From Oscillibacter sp. (GTDB lineage Bacteria > Bacillota > Clostridia > Oscillospirales > Oscillospiraceae): 33,964 nucleotides of DNA. The stretch's first letter is position 1; each line of letters begins with the position of its first letter. Shown piece by piece: positions 7,062 through 33,964 of this stretch. Both the position numbers and the translations under genes were made by a program. The stretch is from the NCBI GenBank assembly GCA_014799915.1, contig JAAVHD010000054.1, positions 10,837-44,800 of the forward strand, read 5' to 3'. The notes below the pieces were generated by a model. That model ran no database searches and was not told the origin of the DNA. It was given only the letters and a program-made list of their open reading frames with translations.

Positions 7062-7553
7062 TCACAGGGGAAGAATATAGCTGTGGCCTTTCGCGGTTTT
7101 CGCTTCCTCCCGGAATCCCAAAGAGGTAAACATACGTCGGGAACCATCGTTGAAATCGTAGACGTCACCCACCCGGACCTTTTCCCAGCCCAGAGCGCGG
7201 GCGCGGTCAATAAGGGCCGACACCACCGCTCTGCCTACGCCTTTCCCACGGAAGTCCTTTTCCCCGATGACGATGGCGAAATCGTCCAGGGAGAGGCACA
7301 CATCCCCGATGGGCTTCCAGCTGTCGTTTTCCCGGAACTCGATGAAATATAATTCCCCATGGGTGTCCTGATGGGTGTACATTTTGTCCAGCAATTCCGG
7401 CGTGTAGATGTCTTTGTCGCCGTCTACCAGCCAGACCGTTTCCGGGTCCAGATACCAGGAGAGGGCGAAATCGTGTTTGCCGTCATATTTCCGCAGGCGG
7501 AGGCTATCGGAAACGGGCAGCACCTCCGGCTGCTCTATGTTCTCAATGGGCAT
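7062..7553 (-). CDS. GNAT family N-acetyltransferase
   Basis: 163 aa; IGEKDFRGKGVGRAVVSALIDRARALGWEKVRVGDVYDFNDGSRRMFTSLGF. Confidence 0.85.
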   Translation of the reverse strand: MPIENIEQPEVLPVSDSLRLRKYDGKHDFALSWYLDPETVWLVDGDKDIYTPELLDKMYTHQDTHGELYFIEFRENDSWKPIGDVCLSLDDFAIVIGEKDFRGKGVGRAVVSALIDRARALGWEKVRVGDVYDFNDGSRRMFTSLGFREEAKTAKGHSYILPL

Positions 7554-7564
7554 GGAGGTAGTCC

Positions 7565-8080
7565 TTTCTGCCCCTGCCGGGGCTAACTTTTCGCGCGCGC
7601 GAAAAGTTACAAAAGAGCGCTTAGGAAACTACGTTTCCTAAGAACCTTCCTGAATTACGGGGGATATTATTTACGCTACGACGTAGCTGGTTTGGTTCTA
7701 CCGTGGTGCCTACCCACATGCTCGGTGCTTACTTCTACCCCTTTGTTCTAACGAAGATACAGCATGATCCGCTTCTATTCCTACTACCTGGCCACCGCCA
7801 GGAGGACAAATCTATTTCCCCGCACCCCGGGGAGCTCCCCTCGCGTGATACGGTAGGGACCAAGTCAACATCCTGAAATAGACGCTAAGCAGGTGAAACC
7901 ACACCCGCAGTCCGGTAGACCGGACGGACTACAGGATCAGCGCAAAAACAATTACCCCCGTAATAAATAAGGGATTCTTAAACCGTAGGTTTAAGCACGC
8001 TTTTGCCTACTTTTCCCGTGGGGGAAAAGTAGGCCCGGGGTCCGGGGGCGGGTAGCTCCCGGGCTAAAGGGCAGAAGAAT
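7565..8080. repeat. Non-coding element copy A: conserved ~296-nt core (7671-7966) flanked by inverted hairpin modules; candidate structured RNA or MITE-like element
   Basis: Core aligns with copy B: identical GGTTTGGTTCTACCG; 41/43 over GCACCCCGGGGAGCTCCCC...GGGACCAAG; near-identical AGACCGGACGGACTACAGGATCAGCGC block. Flanking hairpins 7584-7609, 7620-7642, 7977-7995, 8005-8034. Confidence 0.8.
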
Positions 8081-8109
8081 CTGCCGTTTGCCGCCAGAGG
8101 CGACAAAGA

Positions 8110-8529
8110 TCACTTCCCCGCCTGCGTCTCGCAGTACAGGCACCGGTAAACCCTTTTCTCCCGGTTGGTCAGCTTAAACACCTGCGGTAGCTCCTGCTCA
8201 ACGGAAGTAATACACCGGGGGTTCTTGCAGCGGATCACGTTGGTGATACGCTCCGGCAGCTTGAGCAGCCGCTTCTCCACCCGTTCGCCGTCCTTAATGA
8301 TATTAACAGTAATGTTGGGGTCCACGTAGCCGATGATGTCCCAATCCAGATCCAGATTGGTGTCGATCTTGATAATATCCTTCTTCCCCAGCTTGCCGCT
8401 GGTGACGTTTTTCAGAATGGCCACTGAGCAGTCCAGCCTGCCCAGACCCAGGATGTTGTAAAGCTCCATGGCTTTCCCGGCGGCGATGTGGTCGATCACA
8501 ATACCGTTTTTAATGGAATCAATCGTCAT
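8110..8529 (-). CDS. pyrI: Aspartate carbamoyltransferase regulatory subunit
   Basis: 139 aa; MTIDSIKNGIVIDHIAAGKAMELYNILGL, CKNPRCITSVEQ...YRCLYCE zinc motif; adjacent pyrB. Confidence 0.95.
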   Translation of the reverse strand: MTIDSIKNGIVIDHIAAGKAMELYNILGLGRLDCSVAILKNVTSGKLGKKDIIKIDTNLDLDWDIIGYVDPNITVNIIKDGERVEKRLLKLPERITNVIRCKNPRCITSVEQELPQVFKLTNREKRVYRCLYCETQAGK

Positions 8530-33399: not shown

Positions 33400-33945
33400 T
33401 TTCTTTATTATAGATTCGCGCCTCGCCGGCGCGGGGGCCTTCTTTTCCCTTGTGGGAAAAGAAGCAAAAGCACCCTCAAGGGGGCTCCGCCACCCTTGAG
33501 AATCCCCTAATGTATTTGTCTAGTTACGCTACGACGTAACGGGTTTGGTTCTACCGGGGGGCTTACCTACATGCTCGGTGCCTTGCATCTACCCGTTCGC
33601 CCTAACGGAGCCAGCAGCAAAATCTGTTTCTACTCCTACTACTTGGCCACCGCCAGGAGTACCATCTATTTCCTAGCACCCCGGGGAGCTCCCCTCGCGT
33701 AATACGGTAGGGACTAAGATAACATCCTAAAATAGCACCACCGCAGCAGAAACCGCTAAAAATCCGATTTAGACCGGACGGACTAGAGGATCAGCGCAAA
33801 AAACAATTACTCCCGTAATAAGGTGTCGCCGCCAGGCGATGCCCGAGGGAGTCTTGAACCGTAGGTTCAAGCGCGTTTTTGCCTTCTTTTGTCGCGCGAC
33901 AAAAGAAGGCGCGGAGTCCGGGGCCGCGTAGGTCCCGGGCTGACG
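33400..33945. repeat. Non-coding element copy B: ~298-nt conserved core (33524-33821) flanked by inverted hairpin modules
   Basis: Aligns block by block with copy A; flanking hairpins 33439-33464, 33475-33500, 33853-33871 and 33881-33910 (30-nt perfect palindrome). Outer edges approximate. Confidence 0.8.
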
Positions 33946-33964
33946 GAAGAAAAAAGTCCCGTTC

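Follow-up and report, generated by a model that had tools for sequence, protein, structure and literature searches.

A multicopy intergenic repeat with covarying hairpin ends and exchangeable cores in Oscillibacter and relatives, probably a non-autonomous mobile DNA element

The window analysed here is a stretch of 33,964 nucleotides from an Oscillibacter-like genome. It contains a non-coding block of about 300 nt that recurs within the window and carries conserved, mutually complementary segments, which raises the question of whether the block is a structured RNA or something else. The initial annotation, made from the letters of the sequence, described a conserved core at 7671-7966 that was present twice and proposed that it was a folded RNA. 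The blocks that it named are indeed present in both copies, which align at 76.7% identity over 447 nt (blastn), far above chance, and no open reading frame of 80 or more amino acids lies over 7671-7966, so the region is non-coding as claimed. The complementary segments also exist, but they belong to a unit that exceeds the described span, which covers just the middle of a repeat of about 540 bp. Inverted ends extend the repeat to approximately 7570-8109; in copy A they pair 7577-7607 with 8009-8039 and 7654-7672 with 7946-7964.

The element consists of two facing terminal modules around a core (Table 1). The terminal modules are inverted terminal repeats, with arms that are 77-86% complementary, and the core itself consists of two half-units in inverted orientation, drawn in several combinations from a set that includes LC, RC and X, RC being the commonest. 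The long-range complementarity noted in the core therefore follows from its layout, two inverted half-units between inverted ends.

Table 1. Features of the two copies in the window, their neighbours and the gene pairs found between element halves. R1 denotes the covariance model built for end modules.
Feature	Position	Strand	Details	Basis
GNAT-like flanking gene	7062-7553	-	start faces copy A	named from translation
Copy A, whole element	7570..8109	+		alignment of 14 copies with flanks; orthologous intergenic spacers
Copy A, left terminal module	7580..7653	-	H1 7584-7609, H2 7620-7642	R1, 64.0 bits; inverted repeats
Core half-unit LC	7665..7805	+	blocks CGCTACGACGT, GGTTTGGTTCTACC, CCACCGCC	module HMM, layout
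Core half-unit RC	7819..7958	+	blocks GCACCCCGGGGAG, ACGGTAGGG, ATAGACGC, GACCGGACGGACTACAGGAT, GCGCAAAA	module HMM, layout
Copy A, right terminal module	7966..8036	+	H2 7977-7995, pairing triplet CAC, H1 8005-8034	R1, 78.2 bits; inverted repeats
Outer hairpin	8042..8062	+	CCGGGGGC...GCTCCCGG, compensated between copies	read off 14-copy alignment
Outermost hairpin	8087..8107	+	TTTGCCGCC..., sequence differs among copies	read off alignment
pyrI-like flanking gene	8110-8529	-	stop faces copy A	named from translation
Copy B, same element	33435..33964	+	cut by contig end	blastn against copy A; layout
Copy B, left terminal module	33435..33511	-		R1, 63.5 bits
Copy B, right terminal module	33842..33912	+		R1, 76.1 bits
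Divergent XRE and small-protein pairs	G000:C41:36821-37359, C41:42812-43448, C22:30945-31490		between element halves; also G008 copies	

Each terminal module comprises two near-perfect palindromic hairpins and a segment of 3 nt with complementarity to the outer hairpin's loop. The hairpin structure of the ends is a covarying fold, and the support for this is strong. Among 42 diverse ends, two-sided changes over the two hairpins and the loop-triplet pairing numbered 177, compared with 45 in shuffled alignments. Standard pairs made up 98.0% of cells in the same 42 ends and at most about 53% in slid controls; these ends were picked for diversity after a hairpin requirement, so the H1 percentage comes partly from selection, while the triplet and H2 were unselected. 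In 171 of 194 ends the triplet that precedes the outer hairpin complements the apex of that hairpin (shuffled mean 75, maximum 89). G-U cells account for a few per cent of the end helices at most, a rarity that would favour near-perfect palindromes over RNA helices, though the conserved hairpins could also have a role at transcript level. An Rfam match of an end hairpin to Clostridiales-2 was dismissed, since it scored 16.7 bits against a gathering score of 58.6.

The covarying hairpins thus lie just outside the span proposed as a folded RNA, and the core itself behaves differently. The helices proposed for the core are paired in 77.2% of cells in 26 LC/RC cores from three genomes, and in 75.0% after shuffling. 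Their two-sided cells number 24, compared with 14.3 in shuffled alignments, but 29 are obtained when the partners are slid by three columns. The RNAalifold consensus of the cores has an energy of -4.85 kcal/mol, and when gap-rich columns are dropped and RIBOSUM scores used, the energy of the consensus falls below that of column shuffles (z -3.1 on the plus strand, -4.6 on the minus strand). The predicted consensus fold gains no covariation over column-shuffled alignments on either strand (53 versus 45±13; 76 versus 58±16). LC/RC cores folded alone have mean z scores of -0.95 and -0.63 on the two strands, little beyond shuffles, and extreme values are limited to palindromic RC'/RC types and one further copy. 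The core blocks may therefore be closer to binding motifs than to helices.

These results bear on the proposal that the core is a structured non-coding RNA, for example a recombinase guide, that either travels with a mobile element or forms the mobile unit itself. Such an RNA would fit the near constant length of about 300 nt across core types, the strong conservation of short blocks and the consensus energies given above, and also the fold of copy A over 7640-7990 (z -4.1 on the plus strand, -3.6 on the minus strand), a stretch that includes the complementary ends. Against it stand the core covariation, not clearly above controls, and the near-shuffle folding of LC/RC cores, together with searches that found no sigma-70 promoter-like site and no Rfam covariance model matching above threshold, and the lack of any orientation bias relative to genes (see below). 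The suggestion of a known RNA class, with raiA as one idea, was not borne out, raiA giving no match even at E values up to 10. An RNA core is left unsupported by the absence of clear covariation in the named helices, of an Rfam match and of folding beyond shuffles in LC/RC cores, and we regard it as unlikely. The initial annotation had itself set a family of transposon ends and a lack of covariation against an RNA, and for the core this is largely what was found.

The element is far more numerous than its two copies in the window indicate. A 351-nt query gave 50 blast matches in the same genome, many of them at contig ends, and R1 gave at least 150, of which 142 strong ones were mapped; with at least 142 terminal modules, the count of two was a large underestimate for the genome. 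The mapped modules face each other at distances below 1 kb in 25 pairs, 14 of them at 302-330 nt and 11 at 432-907 nt, and no pair in this genome is spaced by 0.9-3.6 kb. The repeat is probably a cause of fragmentation in these assemblies: 29 of its end modules sit no more than 450 nt from where a contig begins. A short element that lacks a transposase and is present in many copies has two of the properties expected of a MITE.

The half-units are arranged as LC-RC, as palindromic RC'-RC or as X'-RC, among other layouts, and may have inserts between them, either palindromic hairpin filler or small genes. Among the genes are divergent pairs of an XRE regulator and a small protein, the latter matching DUF6809 in several cases; these pairs are possible cargo. 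In one copy (L152 1641-3178, G012:C65) a 1.4-kb interior between end modules contains small ORFs, some of them ribbon-helix-helix-like, that differ from the remaining cargo. Several copies, including L019 and L015, have arrays of short palindromes of the GTAGGGGCGnnCAnTGnnCGCCC type between half-units, and such arrays also occur upstream of solo RC units; they seem to form a second repeat family, inserted into or beside the element. A T-box leader near one copy (L069 1968-2174, minus strand) scores 89.3 bits, slightly below its gathering score of 93.

Comparison between species reveals sites with and without the element. The thiI-cinA spacer is about 44-118 nt long, and empty, in G000, G016, G022, G002, G005, G009, G014 and other genomes; in G012 and G018 it is about 650 nt and contains an LC/RC element, in opposite orientations. 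At a second site different cores are present in G000 and G008, and the spacers are short in G012, G023, G006 and G001. Insertion polymorphism with empty sites, a further MITE property, is therefore seen between species at these two loci. The pyrI-GNAT site is occupied in four species (G000, G020, G008 and G006), with cores that differ. Core replacement is thus observed as a pattern, in which the type or orientation of the core at one intergenic site differs from species to species. No target-site duplication was established in these species-level comparisons, in which the flanks are too diverged. Core matches are confined to the genus in our sample (10 of 40 relatives). R1 matches extend to other families and occur in 49 of the 247 genomes examined from the order, although many of the weaker ones may be chance. 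In a further family (f7) two loci, L259 and L264, have facing end modules around unrelated cores of about 290 nt.

Copies group by genome and not by site. The LC tree has 3 changes of genome label over 41 copies (shuffled mean 19) and the RC tree 20 over 121 copies (shuffled mean 66). Same-site pairs are overall no closer than other cross-species pairs, and the terminal modules are too alike across the family to separate same-site orthologues from other copies. The shared sites could instead be old insertions homogenised by gene conversion, and not the result of ongoing transposition. A rival proposal is a structural repeat of the REP/BIME type that does not move but is retained at fixed intergenic positions because it serves the host, for instance in transcription termination or mRNA protection, and is homogenised within each genome by gene conversion. 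The grouping by genome and the sites common to several species are compatible with it, as are the intergenic, hairpin-rich character of the repeat and an excess of terminator-like hairpins in the region (6, versus 1.1 in shuffles). It is difficult to reconcile with clean empty sites beside intact genes, with opposite orientations at one site and with cargo genes inside some copies. Nor do the elements have an orientation bias relative to genes: by simple longest-ORF gene calls, 37 have tandem, 19 convergent and 15 divergent neighbours, which resembles the background of 229, 92 and 73. A stationary repeat of this kind seems quite unlikely. A cis-regulatory role by orientation to genes was rejected for the same mixture of orientations.

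We therefore consider that the block is probably the core of a non-autonomous mobile DNA element, MITE- or REPIN-like, of a family that we did not find described; open-access literature searches on such repeats or on DUF6809 returned nothing relevant beyond general REP and MITE papers. A trans-acting recombinase would recognise the ends in the form of DNA hairpins, and the cores would be swapped or flipped when copies recombine through the ends that they have in common. No mobilising enzyme was found, as Y1, IS110-type and reverse transcriptase families do not track the element in these incomplete assemblies, and no autonomous relative that combines these ends with a transposase was observed, the interiors of the longer complete copies being without a transposase ORF. 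Searches for a phage, plasmid or viral-contig origin gave no match. Movement as a REPIN-like system by a Y1 (HUH) REP-associated transposase, which the paired palindromes, extragenic position, many copies and within-genome similarity might suggest, is very improbable, because Y1 genes occur in 6 of 25 genomes, a set that does not match the carriers, no Y1_Tnp was found in the many-copy carriers G012 (97% complete), G018, G020, G023 and G006, and the Y1 genes that were found have no R1 hairpin nearby.

The mobile-element reading may be carried further, to a widespread class at the level of the order. Its ends would be recognised by structure, a hairpin pair with a loop-pairing triplet comparable to a built-in guide. 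The elements would serve as landing cassettes, in which a recombination system, possibly with a core-encoded RNA, would exchange or flip cores with or without XRE-DUF6809 genes at fixed intergenic sites. We hold this extension to be doubtful. If the reading as a mobile element is correct, much of the intergenic hairpin content in many Oscillospirales genomes from the gut belongs to a single repeat family, which plausibly also causes some of their assembly breaks. The family would then provide a natural system in which ends are recognised by structure and cores are exchanged in place. It is also a warning for RNA-motif searches, in which conserved, complementary, multicopy intergenic blocks may be transposon ends.

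The element resembles MITEs in being short, intergenic and without a transposase, with inverted ends, high copy number and empty sites in relatives. It differs from them in that its ends are multi-hairpin modules conserved in structure and not one conserved terminal sequence, its cores are exchangeable half-units, and no parental transposon or target duplication was found. REPINs and BIMEs with RAYT transposases are a known system for comparison (e.g. PMC3116915, PMC2817692). The element shares with them paired inverted palindromes, an extragenic position, mosaic combinations and amplification within genomes, but the unit is far larger, with its core of about 300 nt, and no Y1 enzyme tracks it. 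Like raiA and other large Firmicutes non-coding RNAs it is large, conserved, non-coding and found in Clostridia; unlike them it is a high-copy mobile repeat without an Rfam match above threshold, in which clear covariation is a property of the ends and not of the core.
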